Shown: piece by piece, positions 13,314 through 56,059 of the stretch
Position numbering within the stretch: the stretch's first letter is position 1
How the letters are laid out: every line of letters starts with the position of its first letter
Notes under the pieces: generated by a model
The model's database searches: none
Told to the model about the DNA's origin: nothing
The model's input: the letters and a program-made list of their open reading frames with translations, nothing else
Position numbers and translations under genes: made by a program
Source of the DNA: Evansella cellulosilytica DSM 2522
GTDB lineage: Bacteria; Bacillota; Bacilli; Bacillales; Salisediminibacteriaceae
Length of the DNA stretch: 64,000 nt
Reading direction: 5' to 3'
NCBI RefSeq assembly: GCF_000177235.2
Contig: NC_014829.1
Span: 558,001 to 622,000, forward strand

Positions 13314-16300
13314 TTATACTGTTTTGTGTCTATTTCTGATTAGTGTTAAGCTGATACCTAGAAAAATTAATAGTAACCCGGCTAATAGCCATTGATATAC
13401 ATCCGTTGCTGTATCTGGAAGCGTTTTGTTTGAACCTTTCTTTTCATCTTCCACTATTTTCTTTTCAATATCGTCTTCTTTATCACTTTCTTTACTACCA
13501 TCCTGTTCAGGGTTTTGATCAACTGAATCAGTAGAATCGACGTGATCTATAGGATCTATAGGATCAATAGGGTCGACAGGATCGATTGGATCGACTGGAT
13601 CAACTGGATCAATAGGCTCTTGTTCCGTTCCTTCAAAAAATTCAAAAGCTGCAAACATACTAAAGTGGTTCGTCTGTGCCTGAATGACCCCGTTGTCTAA
13701 TGTGCCGCCAATTGAAGTCCATTGTTCTTCCGATTTATCGTAGAAATATACACTTACGTTTTCTTCGTTATCGAATTCATGTACTAGTGGAAGCTTCAAT
13801 GTCACATCATATTCTCCGAATTGTGTAAAGGGTTGACCATTATGCAAGAATGTAAAATTGTACACTTTGCTGAGAAGGTGGCCGATTTCATCAATTTTAG
13901 TAAGGTCTATTTCTTCCTCATTTACGTTTTCAAAAGAGAACTCCACTTCCCCAGAACTAAACATTGCAGCCGGGAAAGAAATTGTAAAAAAGTCTGTAGT
14001 AATATACACGTTTACGTTATTCTCTCTTAAAGCATCAATTTGAGATTGAGAGAATGTAATTTTTGAAATTGAACTAAACTCATCTGAATGCAGGTTAATT
14101 GCTAAAACACTATTCTTCGTGATTTTATCAACTATGTCGTCACTAATAAAAATAGTTTCCTCTTCTACTCTTGGATGTGCGAGAATTTCTACGTAAATCC
14201 GACTTCCTTCAACATAATCGATAGGACCTTCTTGTGCTTTTACGTATTCAACAACAGCTTCCCAAACAGTGATAGGTTCTATTTCAATTGTTTCGTTACT
14301 TAGAGTATAGTGTCCTCCATTATGCATAAAATCATTATATGCGACGGTATAAACAGCATCCTCAATAATTGGTGTTCCGTCCTCCAAATAAATGGAGACA
14401 TCACTAAATGTTTGTGGACCATCCCCTTTTACGAGAATATAGTGAATTCCAGATGCCTGCAAATCTACGTTTCTATGAAAATTAGATTGACTCAAGATCA
14501 TCTCTTTTAATTGTGCACCAGTAGTTTCCACTAGCACAATCTCATTTCCGAAACGATCTAACTGTTCAATTTGCTCTATTGTAATATCCCCAGCTGGAAT
14601 ATTTCCTGAAACAGAGCTTCCGTTAAGTAATCCAATGTCAGCGTTAGCGATTGAACGAACAGCATCGGCATATAAATTACCAAGACCTACGTCCATGGCC
14701 GACTTGTTGTCACTATATAAACCGTTAGTAGTAGCACCTATTGTGTTGCCATCTGGAGTATCTGCATTAGGATCAATTTTAATATTAATTCTACCTTCAA
14801 TGTGATAGTTTAATTTTTGTCCTTGCAAGCCTAAATATTCAGCGTAATCTATCATTGCTGTTGTCATAGGTGTAACTTCATTGTAGAGGACTTCACCTTC
14901 AAAATGATATCCTGATCCGCCTGTCCCTATATAATCTGGAACAGCAACAAGGTAACTAGCATTCATATTGATAGGTTCATTATTAATCTCTAAAATGGCA
15001 TCGATATATTGGCCGCTCGAATTAGTTAAAATCGTATAATGTAACCCAGAGGATTGTAGGTCTATTTGGTTACGTCCATCCCTTGTATAGGAATATTCGA
15101 TAACATTTTTTATAGCTTCTCCAGTCATTTCTAGAAGCATGACTTGATTGTCAAATGGCTCAATACGATAAATATCTCCAATGGTAACGTCACCTGGAGA
15201 GATGGAATCACGAATGCCACCATTATTTGTGAAAGCTATGTCAGCACTTGCTGCAAAAGCCATAGCATCTGTCCAAAAGTTTCCTAATGGAGCGTCTGTT
15301 TCATACCTCTCATTACGAGATAAACCAGTTTCTGTTTCTCCAATGACAATGCTTAAAATTTCATCCATTTGCTCATTCCAGTGATCTACAATAGCTTGCA
15401 CATCTTCATCTACTTCAGACAGTGAACTGATCTCCTGTAAACCTCCAGACACTTCTATTACTTGCTTTGTTTCTGGATCGATGGAAAGGTTAAGCTTACC
15501 AACATGACTAGCATAACCACCGGCTTGTGTAATAGGTGTGCCATTAACTACTTGAGGAGTGCTTAAAGTAGTATGAGTATGTCCGCCAATAATGGCGTCA
15601 AAGTAATCGACTTCTTCTGCTAAGCTTCTATCTGCACCATAACCAATATGTGTTAAAGCAATAATAATATCTGCTTGAGCTTCCATTTCATCTTGATATT
15701 GAAGAGCTGTTTCCACATAATCATGAAACTCGATGCCAACAATACCACTAGGTGCTGTTGCTGGCGGATTTTGTGTTAGTCCGAATACAGCAACATCAAA
15801 ATCGTCAAATTCAAAGATGGTATATGGATCAGGTTGTTCAATCGGGATTTCTGGACTAACAGTCATGTTCGCGCTAATCCAAGGGAAATCGGATTGAATA
15901 ACTCTTTCAGCAAAAACATCTTGTCCGTAATCAAACTCATGGTTTCCAATGACTAAAGCATCTAAGTTCATTTCGTTTAATATTTCAATAATAGGTTCTC
16001 CAAGATTAATATCATTGACTGGTGAACCACTGAAAATGTCACCTGCATCAAGGTAAAGAGAATTCTCAGCTGCTTCCCTTTCAGCATTAATGAAAGCGGC
16101 AGCCTTTCCTAATTCGTCAATTCTTGAATGAATGTCGTTCGTGTGTAAAATGGTTAAATCTAATACTTCTGAGTTTGGAGGATCATTAGGTTCAGGGTTA
16201 GTTGGCTCTAATTCACTATGCAATATTATTGAAATTCTGCCTTCTGATTCGTAATTAAGCCTTTTTCCTTGCTCTGTTAAGAATTCTGCATATTGAATCA

Positions 16301-17771
16301 TAGCTGTAGTCACAGGCATTACTTCAGGATAAATAACTTCTCCAACAAAGTGATAACCTGAACCGCCAGTCCCTATAAAATCAGGCAAAGCAACTATATA
16401 AGTTTGTTCCATATTTAATGGCTCGCCATTTAACTCTAATATTGCATCAGAGTAATATCTGTTTTCGTCAGTTAGAATAGTGTAATGTAAACCGGATGTT
16501 TGCAGATCAACATTTCTAAATCTTGAATAAGAATATTGAATAACATCTTTAATCGCTTGTCCTGTCATTTCATAGAGCATTACTTGGTTATCGAATGGCT
16601 CAACACGATAAATATCTCCAATGGTAATAGCACCAGGTTCAATAGAATCACGAACACCACCATTGTTCGTAAAAGCCATATCAGCTTCTGTTGCCCAAAC
16701 CATAGCATCGGTCCAGAAGTTACCTAATGCTATATCTCGACTATTTCTTCCATCACGAGTTAGGCCAGTATCGGATTCTCCAATAGTTATTTGAAGAATA
16801 TCTTCCATCTGAATATTCCAGGAATCTATTATTGATTGAATATTTTCTTCTGTTTCTGTTAATTGATCAATTGATTGTAAATGTCCAGTAACATCTACAA
16901 CTTCTTTTGTTTCAGGGTCAATAGAAAGGTTTAATTTACCAACATGGCTAGCATAGCCACCGGCTTGGGTAATTGGTGTTCCATTTACTACTTGAGGACT
17001 GTTAATAACAGAGTGGGAATGTCCACCTATAATAACATCAAAATAATCGACCGATTCTGCTAATCGCCTATCAGCACTGTTACCAATATGTGTTAAGGCA
17101 ATAATAATATCTGCTTGAGCTTCCATTTCATCTTGATATTGAAGTGCTGTTTCCACGTAGTTATGAAACTCGATGCCAACAATACCACTAGGTGCCGTTG
17201 CGGGGGGATTTTGTGTAAGTCCGAATACAGCAACATCGAAATCGTCAAATTCAAAAATGGTATATGGATCAGGTTGTTCAATCGGGATTTCTGGACTAAC
17301 AGTCATGTTCGCGCTAATCCAAGGGAAATCAGATTGAATAACTCTATCTGCAAAGGCATCTTGACCATAGTCAAACTCATGATTTCCTATTGTTAGTGCG
17401 TCTAAGTTCATTTCATTTAAAATTTCAATAATTGGTTCTCCAAGATTAATATCATTAACTGGTGAACCACCGAAAATGTCACCTGCATCAAGGTAAAGAG
17501 AATTCTCAGCTGCTTCCCTTTCTGCATTAATGAAAGCCGCAGCCTTTCCTAACTCGTCAATTCTTGAATGAATGTCGTTCGTGTGTAAAATGGTTAAATC
17601 TAATAAATCTTCATTGCCAGTTGTAACATTGTCTTCTGTAGTACTTTCTAGCGTTACAATGTCATCATTTGAAGAAGCGGATACCGTTTGGATAGGTGTC
17701 ACAATACTAAAAACTAATGCTAGAATCATCCAATAGATAATTCCCTTAGACCAGGTTTTTTTCAAAAACAT
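13314..17771 (-). CDS. Giant cell-wall-anchored 5'-nucleotidase / 2',3'-cyclic phosphodiesterase with duplicated catalytic unit
   Basis: The start is the ATG at 17771, behind a strong AAGGAGGT; the longer GTG frame adds a non-signal stretch. The product has 1485 residues. Order: signal peptide (to about 35), first metallophosphoesterase plus 5'-nucleotidase C-terminal domain (about 55-530), a second near-identical copy (about 537-1000), a third nucleotidase C-terminal-like domain without its own phosphoesterase (about 1010-1200), a beta-rich region, an Asp-Pro stalk of DPV/DPI repeats, the sorting signal LPDTA (1451-1455), a membrane helix and a basic tail. Both copies keep HTNDIHS, DAGDIF, GNHEFDYG, ALTHIG and GGH metal ligands. 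It would release phosphate from extracellular nucleotides. LPxTA predicts attachment by a class-D-like sortase. Confidence 0.9.
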   Translation of the reverse strand: MFLKKTWSKGIIYWMILALVFSIVTPIQTVSASSNDDIVTLESTTEDNVTTGNEDLLDLTILHTNDIHSRIDELGKAAAFINAEREAAENSLYLDAGDIFGGSPVNDINLGEPIIEILNEMNLDALTIGNHEFDYGQDAFADRVIQSDFPWISANMTVSPEIPIEQPDPYTIFEFDDFDVAVFGLTQNPPATAPSGIVGIEFHNYVETALQYQDEMEAQADIIIALTHIGNSADRRLAESVDYFDVIIGGHSHSVINSPQVVNGTPITQAGGYASHVGKLNLSIDPETKEVVDVTGHLQSIDQLTETEENIQSIIDSWNIQMEDILQITIGESDTGLTRDGRNSRDIALGNFWTDAMVWATEADMAFTNNGGVRDSIEPGAITIGDIYRVEPFDNQVMLYEMTGQAIKDVIQYSYSRFRNVDLQTSGLHYTILTDENRYYSDAILELNGEPLNMEQTYIVALPDFIGTGGSGYHFVGEVIYPEVMPVTTAMIQYAEFLTEQGKRLNYESEGRISIILHSELEPTNPEPNDPPNSEVLDLTILHTNDIHSRIDELGKAAAFINAEREAAENSLYLDAGDIFSGSPVNDINLGEPIIEILNEMNLDALVIGNHEFDYGQDVFAERVIQSDFPWISANMTVSPEIPIEQPDPYTIFEFDDFDVAVFGLTQNPPATAPSGIVGIEFHDYVETALQYQDEMEAQADIIIALTHIGYGADRSLAEEVDYFDAIIGGHTHTTLSTPQVVNGTPITQAGGYASHVGKLNLSIDPETKQVIEVSGGLQEISSLSEVDEDVQAIVDHWNEQMDEILSIVIGETETGLSRNERYETDAPLGNFWTDAMAFAASADIAFTNNGGIRDSISPGDVTIGDIYRIEPFDNQVMLLEMTGEAIKNVIEYSYTRDGRNQIDLQSSGLHYTILTNSSGQYIDAILEINNEPINMNASYLVAVPDYIGTGGSGYHFEGEVLYNEVTPMTTAMIDYAEYLGLQGQKLNYHIEGRINIKIDPNADTPDGNTIGATTNGLYSDNKSAMDVGLGNLYADAVRSIANADIGLLNGSSVSGNIPAGDITIEQIEQLDRFGNEIVLVETTGAQLKEMILSQSNFHRNVDLQASGIHYILVKGDGPQTFSDVSIYLEDGTPIIEDAVYTVAYNDFMHNGGHYTLSNETIEIEPITVWEAVVEYVKAQEGPIDYVEGSRIYVEILAHPRVEEETIFISDDIVDKITKNSVLAINLHSDEFSSISKITFSQSQIDALRENNVNVYITTDFFTISFPAAMFSSGEVEFSFENVNEEEIDLTKIDEIGHLLSKVYNFTFLHNGQPFTQFGEYDVTLKLPLVHEFDNEENVSVYFYDKSEEQWTSIGGTLDNGVIQAQTNHFSMFAAFEFFEGTEQEPIDPVDPVDPIDPVDPIDPIDPIDHVDSTDSVDQNPEQDGSKESDKEDDIEKKIVEDEKKGSNKTLPDTATDVYQWLLAGLLLIFLGISLTLIRNRHKTV
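15610..17610 (-). repeat. In-gene duplication with an offset of 1440 bp (480 codons)
   Basis: DNA at about 15610-16170 reappears at about 17050-17610 with a constant offset of 1440 bases. Long blocks such as 15791-15890 against 17231-17330 are almost identical, while other parts of the two units (for example the linker before each nucleotidase domain) have diverged. The patchwork suggests gene conversion between the two halves. Confidence 0.8.
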
Positions 17772-18111
17772 ATGAAACCTCCTTGATAATTTTTGTAGCG
17801 CTTTCTCTCCTTCTAAGTGATTCACGGAATAAATTTGACAAGCCAGAGTTTTGTAAACTTGTCCAAAAGGAGTTAGACGCCACTCTATACAATACCAATG
17901 AGACTTTAATTAATGATTAAGGTAATGTAAGTAATTACCTAAAATAGTATGCCAAATATAAACAGCTGTTAAAAATAGTAATAATTCAATAGGATGTACT
18001 TCATAAACTAAATTATTTCTAGAAAATGTTATAGAATTGCAATAAAGAGATCATTTCTGGACTATGCAATTTCTACGTATTAAAATATGGATCAAAGGAG
18101 GGTGAAATACA
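17772..18111. other. Divergent intergenic region with inverted repeats
   Basis: A 340-bp gap between the leftward nucleotidase and a rightward oxidoreductase. It holds an inverted repeat GGACAAG..CTTGTC (17832-17861 on the + strand), an inverted repeat GGTAAT..ATTACC (17921-17939) and A/T-rich promoter-like DNA. An AGCGCTTT core near 17797 resembles half a cre box but matches poorly. No gene is seen. Confidence 0.35.
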
Positions 18112-19237: not shown

Positions 19238-19969
19238 TTATAAAAAACCACTAAAATTTGTTTTATTTAAAGATGCTTGTACATAGTTAATCATTGTTAC
19301 ATAGTCGAAGACAGGAAGATGAACAGCTTCTTGTACGGCCTTCGCATATGGGGGTAACAAGCTGCATTCAAGTAAAATTGATTTGATATTGGGATTGGTA
19401 TGAACCATTTTCTCAGCAGTAGTGACAACTTCAGCTTCAAGCACATCACTATTTAAGGTTCCTGATTCGTTCATGCAGCACTCACGAAAGTGCTCTGTTT
19501 TTTCAAGACCTACTATTTCTACTCTGTCGATTTCTGCTATACCAATTTCACGTAGCAACGAGGCTTTAAGTAAGGAAGAATCAGCGGTAATTAACCCTAC
19601 CTTTTCGTTTGTATTCAGCATCAGTAACATAAATGGAATCTGAAGTAAGCTTGATAAGAAAACAGGAACGTTTAAAGCTTTTCGTAGTTCGTCTTGATAT
19701 AAAAGTAGGAAACCACAACCACCAGTAATCGCTTCTGCACCATTATCTACAAGCTCTTTACCTTTAGAAATAATTTCTTCTAAAACACCTGGAGCTTTAT
19801 TCACCATCTTATGTGCTGTAATCTTATGTAGTGTTCGGTATAGCACAGGGTAGTCGTATGTAGTCGCATTTCCAACGTCACCTGGAATAAGAGGTATAAA
19901 TGTATCTAACATTAATATACCGATCTTATGACCGTAGTAAACTTGCCCCTTTTGTGCCTGAAAAATCAT
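19238..19969 (-). CDS. Aspartate/glutamate racemase-superfamily protein
   Basis: Cytoplasmic protein of 243 residues. The two catalytic-type cysteines of the superfamily are seen: Cys85 in ITGGCGFLLL and Cys202 in ILLECSLLPPYA, each in the expected hydrophobic strand-turn context, with GLITAD in the middle. It lacks the specific motifs of MurI glutamate racemase and is nearer the broad Asp/Glu/hydantoin racemase group, so the substrate is open. The start ATG has AAAGGAGGA upstream. It is divergent from the stand-alone trpB gene. Confidence 0.8.
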   Translation of the reverse strand: MIFQAQKGQVYYGHKIGILMLDTFIPLIPGDVGNATTYDYPVLYRTLHKITAHKMVNKAPGVLEEIISKGKELVDNGAEAITGGCGFLLLYQDELRKALNVPVFLSSLLQIPFMLLMLNTNEKVGLITADSSLLKASLLREIGIAEIDRVEIVGLEKTEHFRECCMNESGTLNSDVLEAEVVTTAEKMVHTNPNIKSILLECSLLPPYAKAVQEAVHLPVFDYVTMINYVQASLNKTNFSGFL

Positions 19970-20130
19970 GACAATCCTCCTTTAGAATAAACACTAGTAA
20001 ATAATGTCTCCATGGAAAAAATATTTATTAAAGTAAGAAAAAAGGAAACTTCTCCGCATTTTACCTCCACCAATTTCGTTTGATTTTCAGTGTATAAGAT
20101 TATATAATTGATAACATAATTTTCTAAAAA

Positions 20131-20184
20131 TAGCTGAGAGTAGAGGAGTGTAGTAAAGATGAGTATGAGAGAAGACGAGAAGAG
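20131..20184 (+). promoter_or_regulatory. TRAP-like (G/U)AG triplet repeats over the trpB ribosome binding site and start
   Basis: Nine TAG or GAG triplets start at 20131, 20136, 20141, 20146, 20151, 20161, 20167, 20177 and 20182. The first five have an exact 5-base period with 2-base spacers. They cover the Shine-Dalgarno (GAGGAG at 20144-20149), the ATG at 20159 and the first codons. TRAP (MtrB) of Bacillus binds 9-11 such triplets and blocks translation of trpG, trpP and ycbK in this way. No T-box, terminator or antiterminator was seen in the 190-bp leader. Confidence 0.65.
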
Positions 20185-21325
20185 AGGTTATTTTGGTGAG
20201 TTTGGTGGTAGTTTTATTCCTGAAGAGCTTCAAAAGGTCATGGACATTTTGGAAGAAAACTTTGAGAATTACCGAAACGATCCCGAATTCATTGAGGAAT
20301 ACAAATACTACTTAAAGGAATTTGTAGGTAGAGAAAATCCTTTAACTTATGCCAAAAATATATCAGAAAAGTTTGGTGGAGCAAAAATTTATTTAAAGCG
20401 CGAGGACTTAAATCATACTGGCGCACACAAGATTAATAATGTTATAGGGCAAATACTTCTTGCAAAACGTATGGGTGCCAAAAGAATCATCGCTGAAACA
20501 GGTGCCGGACAGCATGGTGTAGCAACAGCCACAGCGTGCGCGATGTTTAATATGGATTGTACGGTATATATGGGTAAGTTAGACACGGAGCGACAAGCAT
20601 TAAATGTGTTTCGAATGGAATTACTTGGTGCGAAGGTCATTTCAGTTGATGCAGGACAAGGTAGATTAAAAGATGCTGTTGATGCTGCATTAGGTGACCT
20701 TGTTGAAAACTATGAAAATACATTTTATTTACTAGGCTCAGCCGTTGGTCCACATCCGTTCCCATCGATGGTAAAGCATTTTCAATCAATTATTAGTGAA
20801 GAGTCAAAGCAACAAATTCTTGAAAAAGAAGGAAAGCTCCCTACAGCTGTCGTAGCATGTGCTGGAGGAGGAAGCAACGCAATTGGTGCTTTCGCTCATT
20901 ATATAGACGAAAAGGACGTACGTCTTATAGGGGTAGAACCAGCAGAAGCGCCTACTTTAACAGAAGGTGTTCCAGCTGTCATTCATGGCTTTAAGTGCTT
21001 AACGTTGTTAGATGAAGACGGAAACCCTAGGCCAACATATTCTATCTCTGCTGGATTAGATTATCCAGGAATTGGTCCAGAGCATAGTTATTTAAAGGAA
21101 TCTGGACGTGCCGAATATGTTGCAGTAACAGGCGACGAAGCACTAGAGGCGTTTCAGCTTCTATCAAAAGAGGAAGGGATTATCCCTGCTTTGGAAAGCT
21201 CTCATGCAATAGCGCATGCAGTTAAGCTAGCAAAAGAGCTATCAAAAGATGATATCCTTATCGTTAATTTATCCGGTCGTGGCGATAAAGACGTAGAGCA
21301 AGTATTTAAGATGATTAATCAATAA
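20159..21325 (+). CDS. trpB: Tryptophan synthase beta chain, stand-alone gene
   Basis: Pyridoxal-phosphate enzyme that joins indole and serine to give tryptophan, 388 residues, full length. The family start [17 protein letters not shown] is present. PLP-binding Lys91 lies in HTGAHKINN, the [10 protein letters not shown] loop follows, and the phosphate-binding glycine loop is [10 protein letters not shown]. The residues after GVEPAEAP and the C-terminal [10 protein letters not shown] are typical of TrpB type 1. No trpA or other trp gene is adjacent, which is unusual because TrpB normally works in a complex with TrpA. It may be a second copy or the detached gene of a split operon. The overlapping triplet repeats suggest tryptophan-dependent translational repression by TRAP. 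Confidence 0.95.
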
Positions 21326-21336
21326 TGATTTGTAGA

Positions 21337-21382
21337 GGGAGACTCAAAAGGTATGATTTTTACCTATTGAGTCTCTTTTTAT
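21337..21382 (+). terminator. Intrinsic terminator of trpB
   Basis: The stem GAGACTCAAAAGGTA pairs with TACCTATTGAGTCTC (one mismatch) and is followed by TTTTTAT, 12 bases after the stop. Confidence 0.8.
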
Positions 21383-21506
21383 GCAATGTGCAGAGGGTGT
21401 AGCCATGGAGGAACTTTTACTAGCTTTTGGGTCATATAAGTTATTTCATAGAAAGGGACAATCGCTCACCATCATAAGAAACACACTAAATAAGGATGGA
21501 TGTTAA

Positions 21507-21914
21507 ATGAAAAAAAAACATTTCGTTTTTTGTTATGGAACATTAAGGAAGAACGAGTCAAATCATCATTTACTTAAAGATGCTAATTGTATATGTGAGC
21601 ATAGCTTAACAGAGGGAAAAATGTTTGATACAGGTTATGGATACCCTGTTATCATACAAGACGCTATTTCCAAAGTGCATGGAGAGCTTTATGAAATTAC
21701 CGATGAAGAGCTCGATATGTTAGATCGGTTAGAAGGCTATGAGAGTAGAAGCGCACAACACAATTTGTACGAGAGGATACGGCAAAAAGTGATAACTCAT
21801 AAAGGGGAGTATGAGGCCTTTGTTTATATAGAGGGAGTGAACCAAAATCTATGCACTACGTATATTGAGCATGGTGATTGGAAGGTCTATCGTAAAAATA
21901 GGGAAGATGACTAA
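21507..21914 (+). CDS. Gamma-glutamylcyclotransferase-like (AIG2/YtfP-type) protein
   Basis: Small cytoplasmic protein of 135 residues. The fold signature YGTLRKN near residues 10-16 forms the substrate loop of the GGCT/AIG2-like family. The helix ITDEELDMLDRLEGYES has the acidic pattern and LEGY motif shared by gamma-glutamylcyclotransferases and gamma-glutamylamine cyclotransferases. The real substrate in bacterial single-domain members is usually unknown. The ATG at 21507 is preceded by a weak AAGGATGG. It is single between trpB and a convergent DsbA-like gene and is followed by dispersed hairpin repeats. Confidence 0.75.
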   Translation: MKKKHFVFCYGTLRKNESNHHLLKDANCICEHSLTEGKMFDTGYGYPVIIQDAISKVHGELYEITDEELDMLDRLEGYESRSAQHNLYERIRQKVITHKGEYEAFVYIEGVNQNLCTTYIEHGDWKVYRKNREDD

Positions 21915-45597: not shown

Positions 45598-47327
45598 GTT
45601 AATTGTTGTTCTGCAAATTCCCTATAAAGTTCATGTGTTTGTACGAGCTCTTCGTGAGTGCCAACCCCAGTGATTTCACCGTTCTCAATAAATATGATTT
45701 TGTCTGCATTTACAATTGTAGATAAGCGGTGGGCTATTACAAATGTAGTTCGTCCTTCCATGAGGCGGAACAGTGCCTGTTGTACTATTCCTTCTGATTG
45801 GCTGTCTAAACTAGCTGTGGCTTCATCCATCATCAAAATTTTTGGATCTCTTAAAAATGCACGTGCAATCGCAATTCGTTGTCGTTGGCCACCGGAAAGC
45901 TTAACGCCTCTTTCACCAACTTCTGTATTGAGGGCATTTGGAAAATCTTTTATAAACTGATCTGCGTAAGCCATCTTTGCAACTTCCCAAAGCTTCTCAT
46001 CATTAATATTTGCTCTATCCTCTAAGCCATAGCATAAGTTCTCACGGATAGTTCCTACCATCATCGGACTATCTTGTGAAACATAGCCAATTTGGTTTCG
46101 CCAAGAGTACATAGATATGTCTTGGATAGGGGTATCGCCGATAAAAATTTGACCAGTGGTAGGTTCATAAAATTGCTCTAACAAGCCAAATAACGTCGTT
46201 TTTCCTCCACCACTAGGTCCAGCAAACGCAACCAGCGTACCTGGCTGCACATCGAAGGAAACATTTTTGATAACCTGCTCTTCCTCACTATAGGAAAAAG
46301 AAACATTTTTCACATAGATTGCTTTGTTAGATATGTCCATATCTATTCCTTCTTGACCAGCTTCTTCGTCAACTTCAAGTATGTCGATAATCCGTTCAGT
46401 AGCCCCTTTTGCCTTTTGTAATTGAGTAAAAAACATCGTAAAGGATGTAATTGGAAAAATAATCTGAAATAAGTAAAGTAAGAAAGCGACTAAAGAACCA
46501 GTCGTCATTGTACCATCGGCGACTCGAATACCACCGTATCCTATAATGATTACGATAACAACCATGACAACGAGGTACATCAGTGGTGATATAAGTGCAA
46601 ATATTTTCCCTTCTCGTAGCCCGTAGGAAAAAAGCTTATTTATACCTGCAATGCCTTTTTTTTCTTCTGTTCGTTCAGCGTTTGATGCCTTCATTAAGCG
46701 TATTTCACTTAATGTTTGCTGCACGTTTCCTGTAAAATTAGCAGTTTCATCTTGTAGTCCACGTGAAATTTTAGACATTCTCATACCAAGTGGAACCATA
46801 AACGCGATGGTAATAGGAACCGCAAGGAACATAAGTAATGTCATTTTCCAATCCATAATGAACAAAATGATAACAGCACCAATAATGGTGATAATTCCAC
46901 TAATAAATTGAGGGAAGTGCTGGGAAATAAGATCCTTCACAATGCCTGTATCGTTAACAACTCTACTGACGGTTTGTCCACTAGTGTTTTTGTCAAAGTA
47001 ACTAACAGGTAAGCGCAAAAGTTTAAACCACATCCTTTCACGTAAGCGAGCAACAATTTTTTGTCCTACATACGCTAAAGCATACATAGATATTCCGTCA
47101 GTAATTGCTTGCAAAATAAAAACTAAAATAATAGCAATAATGAGGTAGATGTTTAAAGCGTCCATGGAAAAGCCGTCTACCATTTCTCTCGTTAAAAGTG
47201 GGATTGACAAGCCTACAATAGTAGTAATGAAACTACCTATTAATCCAATTCCAAATGCGAGCTTAGGAATTTTAGTAGAAAGTATTAGTTTAATAAAAGG
47301 TTTAAGAGAAGTTTGCTGTTGTTCCAT
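45594..47327 (-). CDS. bmrA: Multidrug ABC transporter, half-transporter (BmrA)
   Basis: Half-transporter of 577 residues (ATG at 47327; a TTG one codon upstream is also possible; AAAGGAG upstream). The N-terminal membrane domain (to about 320) has six helices and closely follows B. subtilis BmrA, for example KLPVSYFD-type RLPVSYFDKNTSGQTVSRV and LVAFLLYLFQIIFPI. The ATPase domain has Walker A GPSGGGKTT, the Q-loop in YVSQDSPMM, signature LSGGQRQR, Walker B ILMMDEATASLD and the switch His in IAHRLS. It works as a homodimer exporting hydrophobic drugs. The 5' side carries a 52-bp repeat array at 47523-47830. Bases 47331-47522 hold a promoter-like A/T region only. Confidence 0.92.
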   Translation of the reverse strand: MEQQQTSLKPFIKLILSTKIPKLAFGIGLIGSFITTIVGLSIPLLTREMVDGFSMDALNIYLIIAIILVFILQAITDGISMYALAYVGQKIVARLRERMWFKLLRLPVSYFDKNTSGQTVSRVVNDTGIVKDLISQHFPQFISGIITIIGAVIILFIMDWKMTLLMFLAVPITIAFMVPLGMRMSKISRGLQDETANFTGNVQQTLSEIRLMKASNAERTEEKKGIAGINKLFSYGLREGKIFALISPLMYLVVMVVIVIIIGYGGIRVADGTMTTGSLVAFLLYLFQIIFPITSFTMFFTQLQKAKGATERIIDILEVDEEAGQEGIDMDISNKAIYVKNVSFSYSEEEQVIKNVSFDVQPGTLVAFAGPSGGGKTTLFGLLEQFYEPTTGQIFIGDTPIQDISMYSWRNQIGYVSQDSPMMVGTIRENLCYGLEDRANINDEKLWEVAKMAYADQFIKDFPNALNTEVGERGVKLSGGQRQRIAIARAFLRDPKILMMDEATASLDSQSEGIVQQALFRLMEGRTTFVIAHRLSTIVNADKIIFIENGEITGVGTHEELVQTHELYREFAEQQLT

Positions 47328-55500: not shown

Positions 55501-56059
55501 ATTCCGTGTCAACTTTGAGAATGAAGTGAGCATTAATGGGTTTGGGTCCGATACATTTAGAAGTGCTACAGCAATAACGGAAGAAGGATATATTGTAGAA
55601 GCAGCAATAAAGCTAGAAGCGATCGAACCAGTTGAAGGTACTGTTATCGGCTTTGATATTCAAGTAAACAACGATGAAAATGGAGACGGAGTAAGAAATA
55701 GTGTAGTGACATGGAATGATCCGACAGGTGAATCATATCAAAGCACATCTCAGTTCGGTGAATTACAATTCGTTCTTGAGCCAGAAACGGATCAAGAGAA
55801 ACCAGTGGATGATCCATTAAAACCAGGTGATCAAGAACGAAAACCAAGTACCCCAGGAGAAGAGGATAGCCTAGTAATAGGGGGAGAGGGTGGCTCTGAA
55901 AGACAACACGAAACAGAAGAAGGAAGTAAAGGTGATGAGCTTCCTAGAACAGCAACGAATAATTACAATATGATCGCGCTTGGTTCGTTGTTACTACTGC
56001 TTGGAACAACAATTCTTATTGTGTTTAGAAGGAAAAATAAGGTGACTATACGAGAGTAA
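52559..56059 (+). CDS. Cell-wall-anchored GH10 endo-xylanase with three CBM22-like and one CBM9-like modules
   Basis: The start is the ATG at 52559, 8 bases after GGGAGG. The product has 1166 residues. Order: signal peptide (to about 35), three CBM22/CBM4_9-like modules (about 36-185, 192-340, 358-520; the first two are close repeats with FDDGTTQGWFGR and FEDGTTQGWFGR), GH10 barrel (about 525-865) with acid/base Glu668 (WDVVNEVI) and nucleophile Glu782 (QITELDISIY), a CBM9-like domain (about 885-1070), a charged linker, the sorting signal LPRTA (1128-1132), a membrane helix and a basic tail. It cuts xylan outside the cell and keeps the products near the importer. A cre box and regulator-like site lie upstream. 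Confidence 0.95.
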   Translation: MKRRHVKLFFIQLLVILLVLPPGIMTAQSSVEAIGSFEREIIAEYHFDDGTTQGWFGREANLEVVDNEAHSGEYSLFVDGRTEGWNSPALDLQGMLEIGATYEIAGYMKRAEATSEEKLVMAMIDQSVGEDAQYNWINSRETSQTDWVELRGEYTITDEKEDLVLYFEIENNTENFYIDSISITKISPADDSFVPEIVAEFDFEDGTTQGWFGRGITPKVVQGNGQSGEHSIFVEGRTENWHSPALNVRELFEIGATYEITGHMKRATTTEEDGNLVMAMIDQSIGGDANYNWIDNKRVTHDNWVALSGEYSITEEKGELTLYFEIEGNTEDFYINTITITMISPPTETGDDDIIDVPVEERVAAFTDFEDGTTQGWEPREGPEELTVTTDTAKNGERSLLISNRQGSFHSAKLDFLDHMYAGHTYDISVWVKLAPGETPTSLQISRAETISGSTNYYPPVINPTEVTADEWVLLQGTYTLTGNVSDLYFYVEEPYDENQETGVSFYIDDFKAEVRVPDELEDIAPLKDVFADHFDIGAAVEPRHTAGQHGKMLEKHYNMLVAENIMKPESIQPTEGEFNWVNADAMFDYAEENGLKVRFHTLVWHSQSPSWMFLDANGDPMVVDGVVADPDNLEANKALLLQRIEDHVHAVVGRYGDRVDSWDVVNEVIVPTEEDGFRKSEYYLITGTEFIHKAFEATAEALAALGDDVHPNAKLYYNDYNTHNPQKREFIYEMVKEMQNEGIPIDGIGHQTHLNINSSIELVIASIERFTELGLDNQITELDISIYTGNNEAFFSYADIPASKHEEVAMAYGELFKQLRGVSDQVSSVVFWGIADDHTWLHGRGVANRVDAPFVFDQDLKAKEAYYTVIDDNYVAPERPSIPEPKSEIAYYGTPTINGELDDIWQIATVFETDTWVEGESGSTASVRALWDDEYLYVFAEVTDSQLSNVSNNEWEQDSVEIFVDQNNEKTNYYQLDDGQFRVNFENEVSINGFGSDTFRSATAITEEGYIVEAAIKLEAIEPVEGTVIGFDIQVNNDENGDGVRNSVVTWNDPTGESYQSTSQFGELQFVLEPETDQEKPVDDPLKPGDQERKPSTPGEEDSLVIGGEGGSERQHETEEGSKGDELPRTATNNYNMIALGSLLLLLGTTILIVFRRKNKVTIRE

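Follow-up and report, generated by a model that had tools for sequence, protein, structure and literature searches.

The DNA analysed here was a stretch of 64,000 nucleotides from Evansella cellulosilytica DSM 2522 (the window; bases 558001-622000 of a genome of 4.68 Mb in a single contig), in which a stand-alone trpB gene lies outside any trp operon. The features of the locus are collected in Table 1. The first-pass annotation had described nine TAG/GAG triplets, the first five with an exact 5-base period, running across the ribosome-binding site, the start codon and the first codons of this gene. We recounted the triplets and found the same arrangement. Nine non-overlapping triplets start at 20131, 20136, 20141, 20146, 20151, 20161, 20167, 20177 and 20182, separated by spacers of 2, 2, 2, 2, 7, 3, 7 and 2 nt, and the first five keep the exact 5-base period. 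They are spread over the coding start of trpB and the 28 bases preceding it, and the array thus overlaps both the Shine-Dalgarno sequence and the start codon, the ATG at 20159 lying inside it. The size of a TRAP target is given as 9-11 NAG repeats in the available excerpt of PMC4347634. With nine triplets, the trpB array has the size of a target of about 9-11 NAG triplets (mostly GAG or UAG) with short spacers, although the 7-nt spacers after the fifth and seventh triplets break its continuity and count against reading it as a TRAP site. The array region was no more structured than its shuffles (z 0.67); low RNA structure suits a TRAP target.

Table 1. Features at the orphan trpB locus (positions in the window)
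Feature	Position	Strand	Basis
Promoter-like site, TTGATT-17-TATAAT, 10/12 consensus	20080..20108	+	Consensus match only
TRAP-type array, nine (U/G)AG triplets	20131..20184	+	Sequence; conserved in orthologues
Ribosome-binding site AGAGGAG, purine-rich, within the array, 10 nt 5' of the ATG	20142..20148	+	Read from sequence
Orphan trpB, tryptophan synthase beta, 388 aa	20159..21325	+	TIGR00263, 581.9 bits (cut-off 392.45)
Terminator-like inverted repeat, 15-nt arms, 93% complementary, 7-nt loop, then T run	21339..21375	+	Sequence

The region from 19960 to 21520 contains seven promoter-like matches on both strands, against 4.5 expected by chance. If the one listed in Table 1 is used, the first triplet would lie only about 20 nt into the trpB leader. 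The terminator-like repeat 3' of the gene suggests that trpB is a single-gene unit. A simple scan listed no terminator-like site on the + strand in 19960-21520 and missed this repeat, so that the scan is not exhaustive. No match to the T-box family (RF00230) or to any other Rfam element was obtained at the gathering score in the 64-kb window. Elsewhere in the window, the minus strand of 13314-17825 encodes a protein of 1503 aa in which, by eye, near-identical 5'-nucleotidase-like domains recur and the end resembles an LPxTG motif.

The gene for TRAP and the main trp operon, both of which the first-pass annotation had proposed to look for, were then sought in the genome, and both are present. 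The mtrB gene was found at 2044022 (E 6.7e-39), scoring 141.8 bits with the NCBIfam equivalog PRK13251 (cut-off 117), and residues 4-71 of its product align with solved MtrB chains. The main trp operon was located at about 2.054-2.061 Mb, in the order trpE-trpD-trpC-trpFB-trpA, where trpFB is a fusion, with hisC, tyrA and aroE coming next; these names were read from translations, and trpE was also matched separately. Its leader carries a long (G/T)AG array upstream of trpE, with about ten triplets by eye, followed by what looks by eye like a terminator hairpin. The pabA gene at 94510 has a TRAP-type array over its ribosome site, as does B. subtilis trpG. No TrpP transporter was detected in the genome at E 0.001, and TrpP was dropped as a further TRAP target. 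The genome thus appears to hold a single regulon that comprises TRAP itself, the trp operon, pabA and the orphan trpB. The presence of mtrB, a trp leader located elsewhere and an array conserved in most orthologues together support the earlier proposal that TRAP control here reaches a gene away from the trp operon.

Conservation was assessed in two sets of orthologues. Those from relatives (at least 74% identity) occurred in 19 of the 60 genomes searched, our own included, and the named orthologues were the best 80 of 308; two of the 19 relative genomes are also among the 80. The closest among the named orthologues listed, from which the record of the window's own genome may be missing, came from Salipaludibacillus neizhouensis and Evansella sp. 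AB-P1, with 88% and 87% protein identity, respectively. An array was scored as a chain of at least three triplets with spacers of 2-3 nt. The results showed such a chain in 16 of the 19 orthologues from relatives (all but L030, L032 and L033) and in 67 of the 80 named orthologues; 40 of these best 80 of 308 had at least four triplets. For comparison, 658 further gene starts were taken from these loci, of which four reached a chain of three and none a chain of four; these controls were mechanical starts of non-overlapping open reading frames of at least 150 aa, in 95-nt windows as for trpB, anchored on the start of the frame while the trpB windows were anchored on the GYFG codon. Among 11 more distant TrpBs (L035-L045, 55-62% identity), one (L042) had a chain of at least three; they were taken as operon-type from the sequence before the gene, which resembles the end of TrpF in those inspected, and not from their operons. 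A conserved operon partner was rejected, as no family besides trpB occurred in more than 24 of 80 neighbourhoods (79 named loci and the window, with L126 left out).

The expectation that the triplets would be kept in relatives was therefore borne out in 16 of 19 and 67 of 80 orthologues and failed in three and 13, although mtrB is present in the genomes of all of these low-scoring orthologues. The 13 named cases comprise three Halalkalibacter, five Metabacillus-group and three Paenibacillus loci, each with a chain of one, together with L065 and L109, each with a chain of two; a fourth Halalkalibacter locus scored 3/4. The mtrB gene was found in all 80 genomes of named orthologues and in 58 of the 60 genomes sampled (own included), among them all 19 with an orphan trpB orthologue. 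It is so common in the sample that its presence is a prerequisite for TRAP control and not a correlation. We also scored pabA in six genomes with a weak trpB array, and the chains were 4/7 (G098), 3/3 (G109), 2/4 (G068), 3/4 (G072), 1/1 (G103) and 5/5 (G022, from the relatives). Four of these six genomes retain a predicted pabA array but have no strong one at the orphan trpB, where it was either lost or never present. Treated as a trait on the TrpB tree, the array requires at least 10 changes. When this tree was rooted on the operon-type TrpBs, Ornithinibacillus and L031, both with arrays, fell outside the remaining orphans (support 88). Other RNA elements were also sought in the chain-of-one loci; ten of the eleven were searched (all but L083), and the only matches, to ZTP riboswitches and a group II intron, lay a long way from trpB. 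Control of the orphan trpB by a T-box or another known RNA element was discarded, as none lies in the window or near trpB in the chain-1 loci searched.

To characterise the product of the gene, we compared it with the TrpB of the operon, which is fused behind TrpF in a protein of 611 aa (L047:4445-6280; 807.9 with the NCBI fusion family, just under the cut-off of 819). Open frames of about 600-650 aa suggest a TrpFB fusion in most of the family. Within this genome, the orphan TrpB shares 56% identity with the TrpB portion of the operon-encoded TrpFB. It scored 185.1 bits with TIGR01415, the model of the TrpB2 group, below the cut-off of 518.85. By eye, the sequence retains the TrpB catalytic motifs intact. 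In a TrpB tree (LG+G4, with SH-aLRT support only), 97 orphans lay on one side of a branch with support 100 and 12 operon-type TrpBs on the other. On sequence grounds, the orphan trpB belongs to a distinct TrpB clade and is not a mere extra copy in one genome. This stand-alone clade is apparently uncharacterised, no description of it having been met in the literature searched, part of which was available as excerpts.

Two positions separate the orphans from the operon-type TrpBs. The position of Salmonella (St) N171 is D in 97 of 97 orphans and N in 12 of 12 operon-type TrpBs, and that of StR175 is not R in any of the 97 orphans and is R in all 12 operon-type TrpBs, with the St numbering mapped from the spacing K167-D168-C170-N171-R175-S178 in the excerpt of PMC8187860 rather than by aligning the Salmonella sequence itself. 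According to the same excerpt, which reports simulations, N171 and R175 lie on the beta-subunit helix that meets the alpha subunit. The alpha-contact residues kept in a TrpA-coupled TrpB are thus not kept in the orphans, which also differ from the operon type by a gap after VEPA. We also considered whether the orphan TrpB might instead serve as an additional, spare beta subunit still able to pair with the TrpA of the operon, with the array only co-ordinating it with the trp operon. The position of StK167, which is K in 97 of 97 orphans, fits such pairing, and so does the finding that 79 of the 80 genomes encode at least two TrpBs together with a TrpA that passes the cut-off. The two changed alpha-contact positions argue against it in all 97 orphans, as does the remaining genome, the draft of Ornithinibacillus californiensis (L079/G076). 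Its single TrpB at E 1e-60 is the orphan, with an array of 4/7 and mtrB present, and neither TrpE nor TrpA was found over the cut-off in this draft (best E for TrpA 1.4e-4). This species is a possible indole-dependent tryptophan maker. In Evansella sp. AB-P1, a third TrpB (G005:C4:131703-132851) lies beside a second TrpA (G061:C4, 132943-133629), where G005 and G061 are taken to be one genome.

The trpE leaders provided further evidence on this question. Among 30 genomes, 28 had a trpE over the cut-off. T-boxes precede trpE in 13 of these 28, with two in 12 genomes and one in L147; L160, whose trpE is under the cut-off, also has one T-box. All 15 genomes without a T-box carry a TAG/GAG chain of at least three within about 550 nt upstream of trpE, while only one of the 13 T-box loci does (L135, Mesobacillus harenae). 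That locus combines two T-boxes with a chain of six triplets near the trpE start, and both sensors may act there. At the orphan trpB, a strict chain of at least three was found in 12 of the 13 T-box genomes (the other being L109, with 2/7) versus 8 of the remaining 15. T-boxes sense tRNA charging and TRAP senses free tryptophan, as stated in the excerpt of PMC11255114. A trp operon under T-boxes together with a TRAP array on the orphan trpB indicates that the two are not under one signal, and this also speaks against a spare subunit co-ordinated with the operon, which we regard as unlikely. We favour the reading that the orphan TrpB is a TrpA-independent enzyme that would use free indole. Indole salvage is likely, given the loss of two TrpA-contact residues and one draft genome that keeps the orphan with no TrpA or TrpE over the cut-off. 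Salvage of indole to tryptophan is described for Bifidobacterium in the excerpt of PMC11085991.

The pabA leaders were read in 19 stretches (18 of the other 29 genomes and our own), chosen downstream of a second TrpE-family match. Recognition of pabA relied solely on a short motif. The gene was readable in 17 of the 19, and two T-box genomes (G082 and G090) were left out of the counts. A strict chain of at least three was present in 10 of 13 leaders from genomes without a T-box and in none of four from genomes with one (G074, G064, G071 and G062). Among the trpE, pabA and orphan trpB leaders examined, the orphan trpB bears the sole TRAP-type site in three of these four; in G062, trpE also has one. 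In Bacillus methanolicus MGA3, trpE carries two T-boxes and the operon includes a trpGD gene (excerpt of PMC4342826), and a pabA free of tryptophan control may follow there from this trpGD. It is possible, though somewhat short of probable, that the bacilli with tandem T-boxes on the trp operon and an array-free pabA have kept TRAP because of the orphan, TrpA-independent TrpB. Charged tRNA would then be read for de novo synthesis and free tryptophan for indole salvage, a lineage-wide division of labour in which a regulator of the trp operon would have turned into the dedicated controller of a salvage enzyme.

TRAP might also bind at trpB and act through transcription attenuation or mRNA stability instead of blocking ribosomes. 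The trp leader of the same genome, with its array and terminator-like hairpin (by eye), makes attenuation likely in this cell. At trpB, however, the ATG itself falls within the array, the leader is predicted to span only about 20 nt, and the simple scan, which is not exhaustive, listed no + strand terminator-like site before the gene. The terminator/antiterminator placed between array and gene in a TRAP transcription attenuator was not found here, where the array covers the ATG. We consider this alternative distinctly improbable, and the position of the array on the start codon, together with the short predicted leader, argues for the ribosome-blocking mode over attenuation of the trp-leader kind.

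To evaluate how readily such triplets arise by chance, we searched for the pattern (KAGNN)x5. With at most one mismatch, it gave three overlapping matches in the window, all at trpB, against 0.09 expected. In the 4.68-Mb genome, the exact pattern gave three matches, one at the orphan trpB and two, overlapping, in the leader of the trp operon. The one-mismatch count in the genome was 10 forward and 0 reverse, and the reversed-pattern control gave 12 and 4, indicating no excess; weight was therefore placed only on the exact matches and their clustering. The one-mismatch matches that fall neither at trpB nor in the trp leader, at 741580 and 1485297, are located within open reading frames and were set aside. 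When the local purine-rich region was shuffled with its dinucleotides kept, five triplets at exact 2-nt spacing arose in 10 of 20,000 shuffles. The looser scores were reached in 239 of 20,000 (spacers 2-3) and 227 of 20,000 (spacers 2-8), about 1%, so that the local statistics, taken alone, are of moderate strength. That the predicted array is real is decided by its conservation and by how other gene starts compare with it. Four triplets at 2-3 nt spacing also occur in the window at about 55780-55950 (+) and at 47190 (minus-strand count), probably by chance.

We further examined selection on the triplets within the coding start. In the 80 named genes, triplets peak, with 20 to 51 genes per position, at -25, -20, -14, -9, -4, +2/+5, +11 and +16 relative to the ATG, with further positions at +18, +20, +37 and +39. 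The same offsets are used across many genera, in proteins whose N-terminal residues differ. In the coding start before the conserved GYFG motif, a short and variable stretch, we observed 232 triplets versus 99.6 (sd 8.5) under synonymous recoding with the codon usage of each gene, the highest of 2000 recodings reaching 133. The same test on 28 later stretches was positive in three (z 5.3, 5.0 and 5.6) and negative in 20, and the z of 15 for the coding start is overstated because the genes are related and three of the 28 later stretches are also positive. That the array is an ordinary purine-rich ribosome site with low-complexity AG sequence, its triplets a by-product of GGAG-like motifs, is hardly credible and was ruled out by the 658 gene starts and the synonymous-codon null: the roughly 1% of shuffles at the looser scores and the unremarkable one-mismatch count agree with it, but other gene starts so rarely reach three triplets and never four, the triplets run into the coding start beyond codon expectation, and their offsets stay fixed across genera.

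Taken together, the array is very probably a site at which tryptophan-loaded TRAP would bind the initiation region of trpB and block ribosomes, the product being a TrpB unpaired from TrpA that most likely converts indole and serine to tryptophan; binding, repression and salvage are all inferred here. At high free tryptophan, the MtrB ring would wrap the UAG/GAG triplets of the trpB mRNA and cover the Shine-Dalgarno sequence and the AUG, so that ribosome loading would be blocked. As tryptophan falls, TRAP would release the mRNA and the enzyme would be made. The orphan TrpB would then produce tryptophan from scavenged indole and serine without the usual pairing with TrpA. The extra trpB is probably shut off when tryptophan is plentiful, a prediction of repression that follows from the known TRAP targets trpG, trpP and ycbK.

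In B. subtilis, TRAP bound in the initiation region of trpG (pabA), trpP and ycbK directly impedes ribosomes, according to the excerpt of PMC11255114. The trpB array resembles these three targets in having triplets in the initiation region, where TRAP would compete with ribosomes, and differs from them in its gene, a trpB that stands alone, away from any trp operon, and encodes a biosynthetic or salvage enzyme. The trpEDCFBA leader, present before trpE in this genome, shares the protein and the triplet code with the trpB array. Its triplets (about ten, by eye) lie well upstream of trpE and are followed by a terminator-like hairpin, whereas those of the orphan trpB lie on the start codon. Trp operons with tandem T-boxes, such as that of B. 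methanolicus, likewise place trp genes of bacilli under the control of tryptophan status (excerpt of PMC4342826), but a T-box reads tRNA charging, whereas the array on the orphan trpB would be read by TRAP and hence by free tryptophan. Translational control by TRAP is thus already known, and the orphan trpB target is new as far as the literature searched shows. The first-pass annotation had regarded a lone trpB under TRAP as a new arrangement, and we found none in that literature, partly available as excerpts; older trp-operon reviews may mention such a site.

Stand-alone TrpBs are useful as biocatalysts, and the likely job of the orphan TrpB clade, making tryptophan from indole, is directly testable. 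The orphan trpB adds a widely conserved candidate target to a small textbook RNA-based regulon, and it may explain why TRAP persists in bacteria whose trp operons are under T-box control.
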